From NCBI RefSeq assembly GCF_006738645.1, contig NZ_AP019700.1:62001-126000 (forward strand): a stretch of 64,000 nt of DNA, read 5' to 3'. This document shows, one piece after another, positions 37,917-46,697 of the stretch. The position numbers and the translations under genes are program-made. This stretch comes from Stella humosa. GTDB taxonomy: Bacteria; Pseudomonadota; Alphaproteobacteria; ATCC43930; Allostellaceae. Positions within the stretch are counted from its first letter, which is position 1, and the number at the start of each line of letters is the position of its first letter. The notes below the pieces were generated by a model. That model was not told where the DNA came from, did no database searches, and worked only from the letters and a program-made list of their open reading frames with translations.

Positions 37917-38993
37917 ATGACCGATCTGGAGCCGCTGCGCGACCGCCTGATGCAGGCCGTCGCCGATGCGGGAGACCTCGACCAGCTGGAGGCGGTGCGC
38001 CTGGCCGCCCTCGGCCGCAAGGGCGAGATCACCGAGCGTATGAAGACGCTGGGCGGGCTGGCGCCGGACGAGCGGCGGACCGCGGGCCAGCAGTTCAACG
38101 CGCTGAAGGACGAGGTGGCCGCCGTCCTGGAGACGCGCCGCGAGGTGCTGCAGGCCGAGGCGCTGGGCCGCCGCCTGGCGGCCGACCGCATCGACGTCAC
38201 CCTGTCGCCGCGGCCCGAGTCCGAGGGGCGCATCCACCCGATCAGCCAGACCATCGACGAGCTGACCGCGATCTTCGCCGACATGGGCTTCTCGGTCGCC
38301 GAGGGACCGCATATCGAGGAGGATTTCTACAACTTCACCGCCCTCAACATCCCGCCCGAGCATCCGGCCCGGCAGGAGCACGACACCTTCTACCTGCCCC
38401 CGCGCGAGGACGGCACGCGGCTGGTGCTGCGCACCCACACCTCGCCGGTGCAGATCCGCACCATGATGCGGGACAAGCCGCCGATCCGGATCATCGTGCC
38501 CGGCCGCACCTTCCGCTGCGACGACGACGCCACCCACTCGCCGATGTTCCACCAAGTCGAGGGACTGGTGGTCGACCGCGCCAGCCACATGGGCCACCTG
38601 AAGGGCTGCCTGATCGAGTTCTGCCGCGCCTTCTTCGACATCGACGACCTGCCGGTGCGGTTCCGCCCCAGCTATTTCCCCTTCACGGAGCCCTCGGCCG
38701 AGGTCGATATCGGCTGCTCGCGCGAGGGCGGCCAGCTCAAAATCGGCCACGGCGCCGACTGGCTGGAGATCCTGGGCTGCGGCATGATCCACCCGAAGGT
38801 GCTGGCCAATGCCGGCGTCGACCCGACCGAGTACCAGGGCTTCGCCTTCGGCATGGGGATCGAGCGCATCGCGATGCTGAAGTACGGCATCCCCGACCTG
38901 CGCACCTTCTATGAATCCGACCTGCGCTGGCTGCGTCACTACGGCTTCGTGCCGCTCGACGTGCCGACGCTCTCCGCGGGGCTGTCGCGATGA
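37917..38993 (+). CDS. pheS: Phenylalanine--tRNA ligase alpha subunit
   Basis: A 358-residue class II synthetase subunit. An N-terminal coiled-coil of about 90 residues is followed by the catalytic core with motif 2 ([15 protein letters not shown]) and motif 3 ([14 protein letters not shown]). The ATG at 37917 gives family length. Its stop overlaps the pheT start by ATGA. Confidence 0.97.
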
Positions 38994-41392
38994 AGATCAC
39001 CCTGTCCTGGCTGCGCGACCATCTGGAAACCGACGCCGACCTCGCCACCGTGTCGGCCCGCCTCACCATGCTGGGGCACGAGGTGGACGGCATCGACGAT
39101 CCGGCCGCCCGCCTGGCGCCCTTCACGGTCGGCTATGTCGTCTCGGCCGTGCAGCATCCCAACGCCGACCGCCTGCGCGTCTGCGTCGTCGATACCGGCA
39201 CCGACCAGGTGCAGGTGGTCTGCGGGGCGCCCAACGCCCGCACCGGCATGAAGGGCGTCTTCGCCCGCGCCGGCACGGTCATCCCCCGCACGGGCGTGCT
39301 GCTGAAGGCCGGCCAGATCCGCGGCGAGGCCTCCAACGGCATGCTCTGCTCGGCCTATGAGATGGGGCTGTCGGACGATCATGACGGCATCATCGACCTG
39401 CCGGAGGACGCCCCGGTCGGGCAGCCCTTCGCGCCGGTGATGGGCCTGGACGACCCGGTCCTCGACATCAAGATCACGCCCAACCGGGCCGACTGCCTGG
39501 GCATCCGCGGCCTGGCCCGCGACCTGGCCGCGGCCGGCGTCGGCCGGCTGAAGCCGCGCCCGCCGGTGACGGTGCCGGGCAGCTTCGCCAGCCCGATCGG
39601 CGTGCGCTTCGACCTGGCGGCCGACGACGCGGCGGCCTGCCCGCTCTATGCCGGGCGCTACATCCGCGGTGTGCGCAATGGCCCGAGCCCGGCCTGGCTG
39701 CAGAAGCGGCTGCTGGCGGTGGGCCTGCGGCCGATCTCGGTGCTGGTCGACATCACCAACTTCTTCACGCTGGACATCGCGCGGCCGCTGCATGTGTTCG
39801 ATGCCGACCGGGTGACGGGTGACATCCTCGTCCGTCGCTGCCAGCCGGGCGAGTCGCTGCACGCGCTGAATGGCAAGATCTACGAGCTGGACGGCGAGAT
39901 GACGGCGATCGCCGACGGCAGCGGCGTCGTCGGGCTGGGCGGCGTGATCGGCGGCGAGACCACCGGCTGCACCGAGGGCACGGTCAACGTCTTCGTCGAG
40001 TCGGCCCTGTTCGATCCGGTGCGCACGGCGGCGACCGGCCGCAAGCTCGGCCTGCAGACCGATGCGCGCTACCGCTTCGAGCGCGGCGTCGACCCGGCCT
40101 CGGCGGTGACCGGGATCGAGGCGGCGACGCGCATGATCATCGAGCTCTGCGGCGGCGAGGCGAGCCAGGTCGTCGTCACCGGCCGCGAGCCCGACCATCG
40201 CCGCCGCATCCGGCTGCACGACGCGCGCGTCGCCACGCTGGGCGGCCTGGCCGTCGCCCCCGACGAGTCCCGCCGCATCCTCGAGGTGCTGGGGGCCAAG
40301 GTCGAGCGCACGGCCGATGCCATGGATGTCGAGGTGCCGTCCTGGCGCGCCGACATCGAGGGCGAGGCCGACCTCGTCGAGGAGGTGCTGCGCGTCCATG
40401 GCTACGACGCCATCCCGGTTGTGCCGCTGCCGCGCGAGCATGCGGTGACGCGGCCGGCCCTCTCGCCGGCCCAGCGCCGGGTCGGCCATGCGCGCCGCCA
40501 GCTTGCCGCCCGCGGGCTGGTGGAGGCGGTCACCTTCTCGTTCATGCCAGGGCCGGATGCCGCCCGCTTCGGGGCGGTGAAGGACGCGCTCCGCCTGGTC
40601 AACCCGATCAGCGCCGACCTCGACGTGATGCGGCCGTCGATCCTGCCGAACCTGATCGCGGCCGCCGGCCGCAACGCCGACCGCGGCTTCGCTGACGGCG
40701 CGCTCTTCGAGATCGGCCCGCAATATGCCGACGACACCCCGGCGGGGCAGTCGCTGGTGGCGGCCGGCATCCGCTCGGGCGAGGCCGTGCCGCGCCACTG
40801 GACGGGCCCCGCGCGCGCGGTCGACGCCTATGACGCCAAGGCTGACGCCCTGGCGGCGCTGGCCGCGCTCGGCGTGCCGGTCGACAACCTGCAGACGACG
40901 ACCGATGCGCCGGCCTGGTACCATCCCGGCCGCTCCGGCGTGCTGCGGCTCGGCACCATGGCGATGGCGCAGTTCGGGGAGCTGCACCCGGCCGTCCTCC
41001 AGGCCATGTCGGTGAAGGGGCCGCTGGTCGGCTTCGAGGTGATGGTCGATGCCGTGCCACTGGCGCGCAGCAAGGGTGGCCATGCCCGCCCGGCGCTGTC
41101 GCTGTCGGCCTTCCAGCCGGTGACGCGCGACTTCGCCTTCCTGGTCGATGGCGGCGTCGCAGCCGAGGCGGTGACCCGCGCGGTCAAGGCGGCCGAGCGC
41201 AAGCTGCTGGCCGGCGTGCGGGTGTTCGACGTCTATCGCGGCCCGGGCGTGCCCGAGGGCCGCAAGTCGATCGCGGTCGAGGTCACGTTGCAGCCGGTGA
41301 CGGCGACCCTGACCGAGGAGGAGATCGACGCCATCGCCGCCCGCATCGTGGCCCAGGTCGCTAAGTCGACCGGCGGCACGCTGCGGACGTAG
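38990..41392 (+). CDS. pheT: Phenylalanine--tRNA ligase beta subunit
   Basis: An 800-residue subunit with the N-terminal tRNA-binding (EMAP-II-like) domain at about residues 39-150, the B3/B4 editing region, B5 domain and the C-terminal FDX-ACB domain (from about 705, with [15 protein letters not shown]). It forms the alpha2-beta2 enzyme with PheS and edits mischarged Tyr. Translational coupling to pheS is expected. Confidence 0.97.
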
Positions 41393-41404
41393 CCGCGGGC
41401 GGCG

Positions 41405-43213
41405 TCAGCGCCGGTCCAACCGCGCGATCGCGGCCAGGACCGGCGCCGTCGTCCCGTCTCCGGCCGGCAGCACCTCGACCCGGTCGGCGTGGCGCCGGAC
41501 CAGGTCGGGGACGGCGCCGGCGGCGTCGGCCGGCAGGAAGGCATGGTCGATGCGGGCAAGGCCCAGGCCGCGTTCGGCGATGCGTTCGGCGGTGGTCCAA
41601 TGGAGCGCCACCCGGGCGGTCGGGTCCTCGACGATGCGGTCGTGCGCGGCCGCCAGCGACGGCGGTTCGCCGCCGATGCGGATGCCGCCCAGAAAGATGC
41701 CCTCCGGCCCGGCATAGCCCACCCCCGGCACCTGGGCCAGGGCGGCTGCGGCCGCGTCCCCGGTCGCCAGCACCAGCACCGTCGGCAACCGGCTCGCGGC
41801 CGGTTCCGGGAAGACGGCGCGCAGGAGCTGGGCTGCCAGCCGATTGGCCTCTATGTCGGTGATGCTCGGCCGGGCGTTGGCCTCCAGGATGGCGAACTTC
41901 TGCTCGCGCCACGGCCGCTCGACGGCCTCGGCCCGGAAGTCGAGCGCCGTGATCGGCATGTCCAGCACGGTCGCGATCCGCTCGAAGAGCTGGATGTTGT
42001 CGGGGTGCGTGTCGGCGGTCACCTCGACCGGATACCCGCCGCGCGACCGCATGGGGGTGGTGCGCACCTCCACCCGCTCGCCGCGGGCCGGCACGGTCTC
42101 AAGCGAGCGGCCGGCGCGGCCCAGCGTCCAGAGCATCTCGCCGTCCACGGTCAGTGGATAGCCCGCCGGGAAGTTCGCCCGACCGGCCGCCAGGTCGGCA
42201 TTGTGCCGCTCGATCAGCCAGGCGATCGCATGCGTCCCGTCCCCCACCACGTAGGGGCGGTTGCGGCGCATCACGATGGCGATGCGGCCGCCGATGACCG
42301 TGGCGCGGAAATCCGGCGTGTCGAGATAGGGCTCGATCATCGCCAAATTGCCGGCTTCCATCGCCTTGGCGAAGGCGGCCGGCACTTCGGCGGCGTCGGC
42401 GACAGCCAGCATGACGCCGCGGGACAGGGAGCCATCGGTCGGCTTGATGACGACGGGAAAGCCGATGCGCTCTGCCGCCAGCACGGCCGCGTCGGCGGTC
42501 GTGGCGATCCGGCACGGCAGGACGGGAATGCCGAGCCCGGCCAGGAACCGCTTGGTCAGCAGCTTGTCCGACGACAGCTTCGAGCCCATGGATGGGGCCG
42601 TCAGCGGCAGGGAATGGTCGAAGCGCACCTGCCGGGCGCCTTCCCCCAGGACCATGGTGCCGGGATAGAGGTGCGACGGGCGGCAGGCGATGCCGGCGGT
42701 CGCCGCCGCTGCGGCGACCACGCGGCTGACCGGGTCGAGGTTGGCGATGGTCGGCTCGGCCTCGGCCGCCTCGCGAAGCTGCGCCATCGCGCCGGCCAGG
42801 CGCTCGGCGATCTCGGCAGGGGTCCCGGGCTTGGTGCAGGCGCCGGCGAGCGTCATCGCCAGGGCGGCGGCGCGCCTTGCCAGGGGCTCGGGTGCGTCGA
42901 ATATGAGGTAGGCCCGCACGATCTGGCTGGCAGCCGGCCGCGGCCGGGCGGCTCGGCGGCCCTGGGCGGCGGCCAAGAGCCTTTCGGTCGTTGCTGCCAC
43001 CAGGTCCATTCCGTCGACCGGGGCGGCCGCATCCTCGTCGGCCGGCAACTCCAGCAGGCTGCATACCGCCTGCCAGCGCGCAACCCATCCGGGGCCCGCG
43101 GCGGCAGTCAGCGTCCCGGGCTCGTCGAAGGCGAGCAGGATCGCCGCATCGGGCCCTTCGATCGACGGGCCGGCGAGGCTGCGGACGGTGGTGACAATGT
43201 CGCGCGTGCTCAT
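41405..43213 (-). CDS. Cyanophycin-synthetase-like ATP-grasp protein, copy A
   Basis: A 602-residue protein whose middle (about residues 205-470) is an ATP-grasp ligase domain like that of cyanophycin synthetase: SSDKLLTKRFL 214-224, VVIKPTDGSLSRGV 254-267, EPYLDTPDFR 294-303, VVGDGTH 322-328 and metal-binding EANARP 444-449. The N-terminus carries a short LAGPS pattern as in CphA. The Mur-ligase domain of CphA is reduced to about 120 residues (to 602): the P-loop is replaced (LATGDAAAAAL) but PEGIFLGG and RGLGLARIDHAFL remain. The substrate is unknown. GAGG precedes the ATG, 16 bases after copy B. Confidence 0.7.
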   Translation of the reverse strand: MSTRDIVTTVRSLAGPSIEGPDAAILLAFDEPGTLTAAAGPGWVARWQAVCSLLELPADEDAAAPVDGMDLVAATTERLLAAAQGRRAARPRPAASQIVRAYLIFDAPEPLARRAAALAMTLAGACTKPGTPAEIAERLAGAMAQLREAAEAEPTIANLDPVSRVVAAAAATAGIACRPSHLYPGTMVLGEGARQVRFDHSLPLTAPSMGSKLSSDKLLTKRFLAGLGIPVLPCRIATTADAAVLAAERIGFPVVIKPTDGSLSRGVMLAVADAAEVPAAFAKAMEAGNLAMIEPYLDTPDFRATVIGGRIAIVMRRNRPYVVGDGTHAIAWLIERHNADLAAGRANFPAGYPLTVDGEMLWTLGRAGRSLETVPARGERVEVRTTPMRSRGGYPVEVTADTHPDNIQLFERIATVLDMPITALDFRAEAVERPWREQKFAILEANARPSITDIEANRLAAQLLRAVFPEPAASRLPTVLVLATGDAAAAALAQVPGVGYAGPEGIFLGGIRIGGEPPSLAAAHDRIVEDPTARVALHWTTAERIAERGLGLARIDHAFLPADAAGAVPDLVRRHADRVEVLPAGDGTTAPVLAAIARLDRR

Positions 43214-43229
43214 GTCGCCTCGCTGGCGC

Positions 43230-45053
43230 TCATGCCCGGTTGAGCATGGCGACTTCCTCCACGACGGCCGCGGCCCGTGCCGCTGCGTCGCCGGCCGGCA
43301 GCGGGTGCACCTGGCGCGCATGCGCCCGCACAAGCTCGATGACGCGCGCGGCCGGATGGCCGGACTCGACCTCGGGCAGATAGGCGTGGTCGATGATCGA
43401 CACACCCAGTCCGGCATGGGTGATGTGGTCGGGCGTCAGCCAGTGGACGGCGACCCCCAGCGTCGGGTCCTGCACCATGCGCTCATGCGCCTCGCCCGCA
43501 CCGACCGGGACCGTCAGCCCGGCCAGATGCAATCCGTCGGCCGACGCCACGGCGGCCGGCAGCCCGAGGCGGGCGATCTCTGCCCGCAGCCGCTCGGGCG
43601 CGTCGCCCGGCTCGGGGTCGAGCACCACGATCGTCGGCAGCCGGACCGTCTCGGCGTCGGGCGCCACGGCCCGCAGGATCACGTCGAAGACCGGGTGTCC
43701 CTTGTAGTTCGCCATGTTGGGGCGCGTGTTGATCTCCAGGATGCCGAACCGCTGTTCGTGCCAGGGCCGCTCGATCGCCTCGGCGCGGAAGTCGATGCCG
43801 CAGACGGTCAGTCCCACCACCGCCATCAGGCGGCGGAACAGCGCGGCGTTCTCCGGATGCAGGTTGGGCGTGACGTCGACGCGGCTGCCGCCCTGGGTGC
43901 GCAGGATCGCATTGGTCCGCAGGATGACGCGGTCGCCCGTCGCCGGCACGGCTGCCAGGGTGAGGCCGACCCGGGCGAGCGTCTGTTCCACATGATCGTC
44001 GACCACGACCGGAAACTGCCGCGAGGCATCGTCCTTCTGGTCGGCCAGCGACTCGTTATGCGCGGCAACCAGTTCGGCCACCGTCGAGCGGCCGTCGCCG
44101 ACGACGAAGGGCGGCACGCGCTCCATCACCATGCCGACCTGGTCGCGCACCATCAGGATGCGGAAGTCGGGCGTGTCGAGGTAGGGCTCGACCATCACGG
44201 CCGAGCCCTCGCCCTCGGCGTTGCGGTAGGCCAGCCGCACCTCTTCGGGCGTGCGGATGTCCAGCCACACGCCGCGCCCGCGGGACGCATCGATCGGCTT
44301 GATCGCCACCGGATAGCCGATCGACTGGGCGGCGGCCACTGCGTCGTCTGCGTTCTCCACCGTCCGATCGGTCAGGACCGGCAGGCCGAACCCCCACAGG
44401 TAGCGCTTGGTGCCCAGCTTGTTGGCGCCCAGGGTGGTGCCGAACTGCGGGGACACGAGCGGCGTGGACCCGTCGAATATGCTCAGGCGGCGGCCTTCTC
44501 CCACCACGGCCAAGCCGGGATAGAGGGTCGACCAGCGCCAGGGCAGGCCCAGGCGCGTCGCGGCCTCCACCAGCACGGCGGCCACCTCCCGCACCGGCGG
44601 CATGGCCAGGTCGGCCGCGGTGGCGCGCAGCCGCTCCAGATCCTGGCGCAGGCGCGCGACCATGATCGGCTGGGCTTCGGCGTTCTGCGTCAGGTCGACG
44701 GTCGCGACCGCGATGCGGGCGGCGGCCAGGGCCAGCGGCCGCGGGATGTCGGGCAGGATGTACTGGCCGGGCGTGCGCGTGGCGCGTGCGCCGCCGCCGG
44801 GCTGGCCCATGGCGATGCCGGCCAGGCAGGCGGCCGCGGATGCCGCGGTCAGGCCGGCCGGCATGGCGGCGGCAATCCCGTAGGTGGCCGGATTGACGCC
44901 GATCGCCAGCATGACCGAGCGCCAGCGGGTGTGCCACCGGCCCTGCATCGTCGCCTCGTTGGCCAGCCCCTGGAACGTCATCGCGATGACGGTTTCCGCG
45001 GCCTCGACGCTGGGGCCATGCAGGTGGCGGACGGTGATCTTGACGTTCGGCAT
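43230..45053 (-). CDS. Cyanophycin-synthetase-like ATP-grasp protein, copy B
   Basis: A 607-residue paralogue of the downstream gene, roughly 40% alike by eye over the ATP-grasp core. LHGPS is at residues 11-15, NKLGTKRYL 211-219, VAIKPIDASRGRGV 249-262, EPYLDTPDFR 289-298, DFRAEAIERPW 421-431 and EINTRP 440-445. The end keeps SADGLHLAGL and GLGVSIIDHAYL but no P-loop. All ATP-grasp ligands look intact, so both copies may be active ligases. It starts 66 bases after the serA stop on the same strand, separated by a hairpin. Function is unknown; amino-acid or peptide ligation is the best inference. Confidence 0.7.
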   Translation of the reverse strand: MPNVKITVRHLHGPSVEAAETVIAMTFQGLANEATMQGRWHTRWRSVMLAIGVNPATYGIAAAMPAGLTAASAAACLAGIAMGQPGGGARATRTPGQYILPDIPRPLALAAARIAVATVDLTQNAEAQPIMVARLRQDLERLRATAADLAMPPVREVAAVLVEAATRLGLPWRWSTLYPGLAVVGEGRRLSIFDGSTPLVSPQFGTTLGANKLGTKRYLWGFGLPVLTDRTVENADDAVAAAQSIGYPVAIKPIDASRGRGVWLDIRTPEEVRLAYRNAEGEGSAVMVEPYLDTPDFRILMVRDQVGMVMERVPPFVVGDGRSTVAELVAAHNESLADQKDDASRQFPVVVDDHVEQTLARVGLTLAAVPATGDRVILRTNAILRTQGGSRVDVTPNLHPENAALFRRLMAVVGLTVCGIDFRAEAIERPWHEQRFGILEINTRPNMANYKGHPVFDVILRAVAPDAETVRLPTIVVLDPEPGDAPERLRAEIARLGLPAAVASADGLHLAGLTVPVGAGEAHERMVQDPTLGVAVHWLTPDHITHAGLGVSIIDHAYLPEVESGHPAARVIELVRAHARQVHPLPAGDAAARAAAVVEEVAMLNRA

Positions 45054-45075
45054 CGCGCGCGGGGCCTCGTTCCCG

Positions 45076-45102
45076 GCCGGGGCGGCGGATTCCGCCCCCG
45101 GC
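45076..45102 (-). other. Stable hairpin between serA and copy B
   Basis: GCCGGGG (45076-45082) pairs with CCCCGGC (45096-45102) and an inner GCGG-ATT-CCGC extends the stem after a two-base bulge. There is no T tract, so it is more likely an mRNA-stability or partial termination element than a full terminator. It lies in the 66-base gap separating serA from the ATP-grasp genes. Confidence 0.4.
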
Positions 45103-45119
45103 GTCCGTGCCTCTTATAG

Positions 45120-46697
45120 CTAGAAACGGATCGTTTTCGCCTGCACAACGTGGGGTAGCGAGCGCACGGTCGCCAGCAGGGCCTCGCCGATCGGCTGGTC
45201 GACCTGGACCAGGCAGATGGCGTCTTCCCCGGGGGCGGCGCGTCCCAGGTGGAAGCTGGCGATGTTCACGCCGGCATCGCCCAGGGCGCGGCCCAGCGCG
45301 CCGATGAAGCCCGGCTGGTCGCGGTTGCGCACGAACAGCATCGGCCCGTCCAGCTCGGCCTCGAACACCATGCCCTGGACCTCGACGACGCGTGGCCGGG
45401 TGCCGCTGAAGAGCGAGCCGGCGACCGTCCGCGCCCGCCCGTTGCAGGTGACCGACACGCGCACCAGGGTCTGGTAGTCCGGCGTGTGCGCGCCCGTCAC
45501 CTCCGTCACCTGCATGTTGCGCTCGCGCGCGATGACGGGGGCCGAGACCATATTGACCGTCTCGAGCAAGGGCGCCAGCAGGCCCGTCAGCATCGCCGCC
45601 GTCACCGGCTTGGTGTTGATGCCGGCGGCGTCGCCCTCGAAGCTGATCTCGACCGACTGGATCGGCTCCTCGGTCAGCTGCCCGGCGAAGCTGCCGAGCA
45701 ACTGGCCCAGCGCCATATAGGGGCGCAGCGTCGCTGCTTCCTCGGCCGACACGGACGGCATGTTGATGGCATTGACGACCGCCCCCGTCAGCAGGAAGTC
45801 CGCCATCTGCTCGGCCACCTGCAGGGCGACGTTCTCCTGCGCCTCGCCGGTCGACGCGCCCAGGTGCGGCGTCACGATGACGTCGTCGCGCCCGAAGAGC
45901 GGGCTGGCCGTCGCCGGCTCGACCGCGAAGACGTCGATCGCCGCCCCCGCGACCTGGCCCGACTCGAGGCCGGCCAGCAGGGCTTCCTCGTCGATCAGCC
46001 CGCCGCGGGCGCAGTTGATGATCTGCACGCCGCGTCGCATCCGGTGGATCGAGGTGGCGTCGATGATGTTGCGGGTGGCCTCCGTCAGCGGCGTGTGCAG
46101 GGTGATGAAGTCGGCCCGCGCGAAGAGCGTCTTAAGGTCGACCTTCTCGACGCCCAGGACCCGCGCGCGGTCCTCGGACAGGAACGGGTCGTAGGCCACC
46201 ACCTTCATGCGCAGGCCCAGCGCGCGGTCGGCGACGATCGAGCCGATGTTGCCGCAGCCGACGACGCCCAGCGTCTTGGCCGTGACCTCCACCCCCATGA
46301 AGCGGTTCTTCTCCCACCGGCCGGCTTGCGTCGAGCGGTCGGCGGCGGGGATCTGGCGGGCCAGCGCCAGCATGAGCGCGATGGCGTGCTCGGCCGTGGT
46401 GATGGAATTGCCGAAGGGCGTGTTCATCACCACGACGCCGCGGGCGGTGGCCGCCCCCACGTCGATGTTGTCGATGCCGATGCCGGCGCGGCCGACGACC
46501 TTCAGCCGGTCGGCGACGGCCAGCACCTCGCGGGTGATCTTGGTCGCCGAGCGGACGGCGACGCCGTCATAGTCGGCGACGATGGCGCGCAGCTCGGCCG
46601 GCTTCAGGCCGGTATTCACATCGACCTCGATCCCGCGCTGGCGGAAGATCTCGACGGCGCGCGGGGACAGGGAATCGGCGATCAGCACCTTGGGCAT
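45120..46697 (-). CDS. serA: D-3-phosphoglycerate dehydrogenase
   Basis: A 525-residue type I enzyme for the first step of serine synthesis. The Rossmann GCGNIG is at residues 147-152, the substrate-binding domain is N-terminal, an allosteric substrate-binding domain is in the middle and a C-terminal ACT domain (about 450-525) senses serine. It lies 82 bases after serC on the same strand, the usual serCA pair. Confidence 0.96.
   Translation of the reverse strand: MPKVLIADSLSPRAVEIFRQRGIEVDVNTGLKPAELRAIVADYDGVAVRSATKITREVLAVADRLKVVGRAGIGIDNIDVGAATARGVVVMNTPFGNSITTAEHAIALMLALARQIPAADRSTQAGRWEKNRFMGVEVTAKTLGVVGCGNIGSIVADRALGLRMKVVAYDPFLSEDRARVLGVEKVDLKTLFARADFITLHTPLTEATRNIIDATSIHRMRRGVQIINCARGGLIDEEALLAGLESGQVAGAAIDVFAVEPATASPLFGRDDVIVTPHLGASTGEAQENVALQVAEQMADFLLTGAVVNAINMPSVSAEEAATLRPYMALGQLLGSFAGQLTEEPIQSVEISFEGDAAGINTKPVTAAMLTGLLAPLLETVNMVSAPVIARERNMQVTEVTGAHTPDYQTLVRVSVTCNGRARTVAGSLFSGTRPRVVEVQGMVFEAELDGPMLFVRNRDQPGFIGALGRALGDAGVNIASFHLGRAAPGEDAICLVQVDQPIGEALLATVRSLPHVVQAKTIRF

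Follow-up and report, generated by a model that had tools for sequence, protein, structure and literature searches.

Two adjacent genes of Stella humosa ATCC 43930, here called A and B, encode proteins with the plan of cyanophycin synthetase (CphA1) in which the ATP-grasp (G) domain keeps its ATP and magnesium ligands and the C-terminal Mur-ligase part is reduced to a remnant without a P-loop. They lie between serA and pheT in a window of 64,000 nucleotides, positions 62001-126000 of the 5,832,650-bp single-contig genome (AP019700). With moderate confidence, we read them as single-site ATP-grasp ligases that would link a carboxylate to an amine other than aspartate through one amide bond. An original prediction, made from the letters of the DNA, had described two diverged tandem CphA-type paralogues, and this description holds: both frames are intact on the minus strand and the proteins are 39% identical over 595 aligned columns (E 1e-115). 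The start of A, 16 nt past the stop of B, is best read as the ATG at 43213; a longer open reading frame (ORF) reaching 43417 overlaps B out of frame. The A-B similarity, the intact frames and the presence of homologues beside pheT in four of four Stella genomes rule out chance or artefact, and a pseudogene reading was rejected on finding no broken frame in either gene.

The top NCBIfam match of both proteins is cyanophycin synthetase (219 and 241 bits to NF010623 and 193 and 215 bits to TIGR02068, for A and B respectively), but neither reaches the whole-protein cut-offs of CphA1 (877 and 850 bits). The third-best family, N-acetylglutaminylglutamine synthetase (TIGR03103), fails as well, with 125 and 110 bits against a cut-off of 569. 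CphA1 is also the best solved-structure match by sequence for each protein. The AlphaFold2 models have a mean predicted local distance difference test score (pLDDT) of 90.5 for A and 89.5 for B. When compared by VIA-align with CphA1 (7wae), A gave Z 32.1 over 583 residues with a root-mean-square deviation (rmsd) of 4.4, and B gave Z 29.3 over 588 residues (rmsd 4.8); the values against CphA2 (7ta5) were Z 26.3 over 548 residues (rmsd 7.0) for A and Z 26.1 over 555 residues (rmsd 7.6) for B. The Mur part had been put at about 120 residues without a P-loop, which is close to what we found: the stretch after the ATP-grasp domain has 118 residues in A and 128 in B with no GxxGKT motif, and it has 379-445 residues in the compared rows bearing GTNGK[TS], save one row ended by a contig end (177). 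The GTNGKT P-loop is absent from A, B and all nine proteins of the clade to which they belong. An alignment still pairs the remnant of B with the opening part of the CphA1 Mur domain, and folds were predicted with confidence for the remnants of both proteins (block pLDDT 81-97 in B and 77-97 in A). Thus A and B share with CphA1 (7wae, 7lg5; TIGR02068/NF010623) the best sequence and fold match, the same ATP and magnesium residues and an alignable Mur remnant, whereas they are about 280 residues shorter, far under the family cut-offs, and have lost the Mur P-loop, most of the aspartate/primer residues and the peptidase motif of the N-terminal domain.

The roles of the ATP-grasp residues were taken from a CphA1 study (PMC9427784). 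Intact ATP and metal ligands had been predicted, and K220, K261, R309, R323, D431 and E450 of CphA1, together with the neighbouring N452, are retained in 9/9 rows of the A/B clade, although only 67 of the 607 positions of B are invariant in the nine-row alignment. Among 24 other Stella rows, K220, K261, R309, D431 and E450 are present in all, R323 in 18 and N452 in 21. As for the CphA1 residues that deal with aspartate and the primer, E215, H267, N394 and R458 are each found in none of the nine A/B rows, and position 394 is hydrophobic in every one (I, M, V, F or L). Two arginines are common to the whole clade. Arg 433, two residues after the magnesium ligand, occurs in 9/9 A/B rows, 10/24 other Stella rows and none of the remaining 58; Arg 454 occurs in 9/9 A/B rows, 6/6 rows of the N-acetylglutaminylglutamine synthetase type (three of these six verified with TIGR03103, at 867-912 bits), 5/24 other Stella rows, 2/47 other rows and 0/5 CphA2 rows. 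The N-acetylglutaminylglutamine synthetases resemble A and B in a related ATP-grasp domain with Arg 454 and without Arg 458, but carry this domain at the C-terminal end, have no Mur remnant and retain N394.

These residues suggest that the acyl-phosphate chemistry is retained and the amine pocket rebuilt, where Arg 454 may have assumed the contact with a carboxylate. We propose that A and B derive from the CphA lineage and are putatively active with a single site. The G domain would activate a carboxylate as an acyl phosphate, as the ATP and magnesium ligands and the arginines R309 and R323 are retained, and would then join it to an amine. The Mur site, responsible in CphA1 for the addition of the second amino acid, would have decayed into a structural remnant. 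The product is probably not cyanophycin because the contacts with the incoming aspartate (N394 and R458) and the catalytic-loop H267 are replaced; it may be a short peptide or an amino-acid amide, species-specific and dispensable.

The original prediction treated the shrunken Mur end as unusual, and this was not borne out. The domain plan of A and B is that of cyanobacterial CphA2, and the P-loop-less end is not new because CphA2 also lacks the Mur P-loop, together with the Mur lid (PMC9427784). In the five CphA2 rows that we compared (one of the five verified against sequences from the Protein Data Bank), the tails have 142-143 residues and no P-loop. CphA2 (7ta5, 8fxh, 8fxi) and A/B are alike in having an N-terminal domain, an ATP-grasp domain and a shortened Mur part without P-loop and lid, in a length of about 600-640 aa, in their single ligase site and in the loss of H267 (K in 5/5 CphA2 rows) and R458 (0/5) of CphA1. 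These likenesses and the fit of the models to 7ta5 (Z 26) would suit a CphA2-like function, in which the single ATP-grasp site polymerises a preformed dipeptide such as beta-Asp-Arg or an analogue. We regard this as unlikely, since N394 is present in 5/5 CphA2 rows (as is S396) and in 0/9 of A/B, which have a hydrophobic residue 394, Arg 433 and Arg 454 instead. Furthermore, a cyanobacterial CphA2 (L183) scores 924 bits to the solved CphA2 8fxh and B only 109.

Two trees also place A/B away from CphA2. A tree of the ATP-grasp domain was built by a quick method with 91 of 97 candidate rows, omitting a 329-aa cyanobacterial fragment, a broken row of 455 aa, two synthetase rows near L172 and two CphA1 rows; a second tree had 50 rows. 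In the former, the nine A/B-type rows, all from Stella, form one clade (support 100), and the five CphA2 rows form another (100) within a group containing CphA1 (97). In the 50-row tree CphA2 again grouped with CphA1 and A/B stood elsewhere (support 93). An approximately unbiased (AU) test of A/B plus CphA2 as one clade did not reject the union (p 0.188), so that decay of the Mur site in A/B independently of CphA2 is favoured but not proven. In a class-wide search of 385 genomes, with at most three candidates scored per genome, the A/B-type proteins reached 834-899 bits and the best non-Stella protein among the scored candidates 254. P-loop-less CphA-like proteins are not confined to Stella and CphA2: at the loci of other Alphaproteobacteria in that search, GxxGK[ST] was absent at this site from the rows of 14 genomes and present in those of five; eight were of the synthetase type without a Mur part.

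The prediction that A and B make no cyanophycin by the CphA1 route agrees with the loss of the Mur site and of most aspartate/primer residues, and also with the content of the genomes. As had been noted for the neighbourhood, no cyanophycinase was matched (TIGR02069, E <= 0.001) in any of the four Stella genomes, none of which has a CphA1 above the family cut-off, so that cyanophycin metabolism in S. humosa is not supported. S. humosa and S. vacuolata yielded neither a complete CphA1 nor a cyanophycinase match and therefore have no known source of beta-Asp-Arg, which is a further point against a CphA2-like function. Naming A and B after their best family match, "cyanophycin synthetase", would mislead, because the Stella genomes lack a recognised cyanophycin-degrading enzyme. 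In the nearest CphA1 relative in S. humosa (3312727-3314877; L051 6701-8848) the Mur P-loop is decayed and the profile match extends across a stop; its counterpart in Stella sp. ATCC 35155 (AP019701.1) carries GTNGKT, and ATCC 35155 and a fourth Stella genome, G002, could have a CphA1-like enzyme. The gene next to the S. humosa relative encodes a glycosyltransferase with merely 44% identity to its ATCC 35155 counterpart.

A and B diverge rapidly. The pheS, pheT, serA and serC genes of S. humosa are 81-94% identical to those of its relatives, while A reaches at best 40-51% and B 39-49%. Other Stella CphA-like genes show 48-62% identity between species (11 pairs). The same regions gave 49 other gene pairs for comparison, 37 with 75-96% identity and 12 with 44-72%, several of the latter being direct companions of a CphA-like gene (a weak DehI match at 58-65%, a methyltransferase at 64% and a glycosyltransferase at 44%). 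In three Stella genomes the gene before a CphA-like gene encodes a 329-aa protein without a Pfam match (L048 6472-7461), whose divergence is nearly as rapid (57-59% identity). The ratio of nonsynonymous to synonymous substitution rates (dN/dS) was 0.52-0.60 in four orthologue-like A/B pairs, 0.41-0.52 in four other groups and 0.15-0.27 in neighbouring genes; dS itself was 0.78-0.99 in the A/B pairs, about twice that of the neighbours (0.28-0.51), and strict orthology may not hold for every pair. This divergence and a copy number of one to four per genome could be expected of paralogues that are non-catalytic or decaying, and that either serve in binding or regulation or are being lost, but such a reading is improbable given the seven catalytic residues retained in 9/9 rows, a dN/dS below 1 that suggests constraint, and the confident folds of A and B. 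In addition, the frames of A, B and the remaining copies that were read are open, one of them being cut by a contig end. Several observations nonetheless weigh against active single-site ligases. The A/B ratio exceeds that of the neighbours two- to fourfold, which could reflect relaxed constraint; S396 is retained in 4/9 rows; the glycine-rich loop of A is partly altered (KPTDGSLSRG); no partner gene in the vicinity of A/B hints at a pathway; and the roles of the residues are carried over from work on CphA1.

The original prediction also suggested that A and B may form a two-component ligase, and that a separate clade with constant pairing would support a new system. The separate clade was recovered, but the pairing is not constant. 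The interval between pheT and serA was compared in four Stella genomes (S. humosa ATCC 43930, ATCC 35155, S. vacuolata and G002); all share it as a site of such genes, yet it holds two genes in S. humosa, three in ATCC 35155, one in S. vacuolata and at least two in G002, and these copy numbers rule out constant pairing. In G002, one contig has two genes on the serA side; on another, pheT is directly followed by a C-terminal piece, probably the same gene cut by the contig end. A careful tree gave a B group of five (100/99), a pair of S. humosa A with an ATCC 35155 gene (97/97), and the two G002 genes as sisters (100/100). An obligate heteromer in which A and B each perform one step is the least probable of the alternatives: it would fit their close adjacency, the two Mur-dead modules that Paracoccus chinensis fuses in one frame, and the dimeric function of CphA1 G domains with E215 supplied by the partner (PMC9427784), but S. 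vacuolata has a single B-type gene, no A and no other A/B-clade match, the G002 genes are each other's sisters rather than an A and a B, and ATCC 35155 has four copies, one of them dispersed. A fixed machine of A plus B is not supported.

The dispersed ATCC 35155 copy also bears on a serine-related substrate, which had been suggested from the place of the genes directly downstream of serC-serA. That place is correct, B lying 66 bp from the co-directional serC-serA, but nothing other than position speaks for a serine link, which is not supported. Against it, the dispersed copy adjoins a bacterial-like globin gene and a gene reading like a major facilitator superfamily transporter, as judged from the translation. 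In addition, no A/B or serA match follows pheT in 26 other genomes of the order, the stretch there being about 1 kb or more in 19 and less in seven. In 39 other genomes of the order no strong match to B was detected (best E 3e-7). A role in defence was dropped, as no PADLOC-DB family matches A or B at E <= 0.01.

A and B are one branch of a Stella CphA-like family with fast turnover and divergence. By TIGR02068 matches over the ATP-grasp part at E <= 1e-40, there are 12 CphA-like loci in S. humosa, 13 in ATCC 35155, 13 in G002 and three in S. vacuolata; thirteen other alphaproteobacterial genomes, picked for having matches, hold one to five each, Mur-only pieces counted. The Mur P-loop appears in 1/33 Stella rows read as proteins (L064 of ATCC 35155); in G002, one match extends over the Mur part as well. 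An AU test rejected (p 1.9e-5) a clade uniting the nine A/B rows with 14 selected Stella rows, and with it a single Stella-wide expansion, so the set seems to have several origins; only A/B and seven "DxR" rows form a branch (50-row tree, support 92, not starred). It is conceivable, though doubtful, that a storage-polymer synthetase gave rise here to lineage-specific, fast-diversifying single-site ligases, each with a different carboxylate and amine, that make peptides, amides or polyamides peculiar to the species, A/B being the housekeeping-linked branch. The wider interest would lie in this large, fast-changing family around A/B more than in the pair itself. If active, its members would be single-site enzymes of the CphA-type fold with likely new substrates and products that have seemingly never been looked for, and the family would illustrate how a two-site polymerase can be trimmed to a ligase with one site, in a course seemingly separate from that of CphA2, and be multiplied within one genus. 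No paper joining Stella with cyanophycin synthetase was found in the literature searched, outside of which lay subscription papers on CphA2.

The features of the locus are listed in Table 1. A consensus scan for promoters and terminators across 41300-45300 found none. Genes at the compared loci were called by simple ORF scoring, so that some starts may be off (S35_T3 has 520 or 616 aa).

Table 1. Features of the A/B locus; positions are those of the window
Feature	Position	Strand	Remarks
B, CphA-like single-site ATP-grasp ligase (putative)	43230..45053	-	607 aa; first array gene after serA; ORF, NCBIfam and PDB matches, AlphaFold2 model
B N-terminal domain, residues 1-158	44580..45053	-	limits by G-domain hidden Markov model (HMM); no Cx19HxxEH primer-making motif (motif scan)
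B ATP-grasp (G) domain, residues 159-479	43617..44579	-	retains K212, K252, R298, R312, D421, E440, N442
B Mur-ligase remnant, residues 480-607	43233..43616	-	no P-loop
A, paralogue of B	41405..43213	-	602 aa; ORF, alignment with B, AlphaFold2 model
A N-terminal domain, residues 1-163	42725..43213	-	limits by G-domain HMM; no Cx19HxxEH motif
A ATP-grasp (G) domain, residues 164-484	41762..42724	-	retains K217, K257, R303, D425, E444, N446
A Mur-ligase remnant, residues 485-602	41408..41761	-	no P-loop
serA, upstream border of the interval	45120..46697	-	81-90% identity to counterparts in three other Stella genomes
pheT, other border, convergent	38990..41392	+	86-87% identity to two other Stella genomes

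CphA-type modules in other arrangements were seen outside Stella. Paracoccus chinensis has a single frame of 1765 aa (L087 7374-12671) with two Mur-dead CphA modules and a PGA_cap (CapA) domain, and a plasmid of Microvirga ossetica (L226 7482-10496) encodes one CphA-type module with PGA_cap, adjoining type I secretion genes. These proteins resemble A and B in the CphA-type ATP-grasp module and, in Paracoccus, in the tandem of two P-loop-less modules; they differ in the fusion to a capsule-type domain, and the trees, which did not include the Microvirga protein, place the Paracoccus modules outside those of Stella. Tandem CphA pairs from beta- and unclassified proteobacteria (L068, L073, L081, L091, L098 and L129) show complementary decay in 6/6 cases. 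Their upstream genes (716-786 aa) have Cx19HxxEH and a gap at the LSTGG loop, and just 2/6 show a P-loop-like motif; the downstream genes (857-887 aa) have GTNGKT, no HxxEH and Gln in place of H267.

The neighbours of CphA-like genes were surveyed in 13 regions of other Alphaproteobacteria (seven proteins scanned, four of them from these regions; the CphA-like gene of L259 was not called). No partner gene is common to the 13 regions, which yielded two Phosphodiest genes, one histidine kinase and one methyltransferase like that beside the Stella loci L053 and L065. The Phosphodiest-family genes lie near the CphA-like genes at L255 4344-5984 and L257 8605-10194. A CphA-like gene adjoins a methyltransferase gene at L053 6174-9199, L065 6054-9130 and L258 6212-8935, that is, in Stella and in another alphaproteobacterial family. 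By eye, the three methyltransferases share a similar unusual start motif, and the CphA-like gene of L053 is fused to tetratricopeptide repeats.

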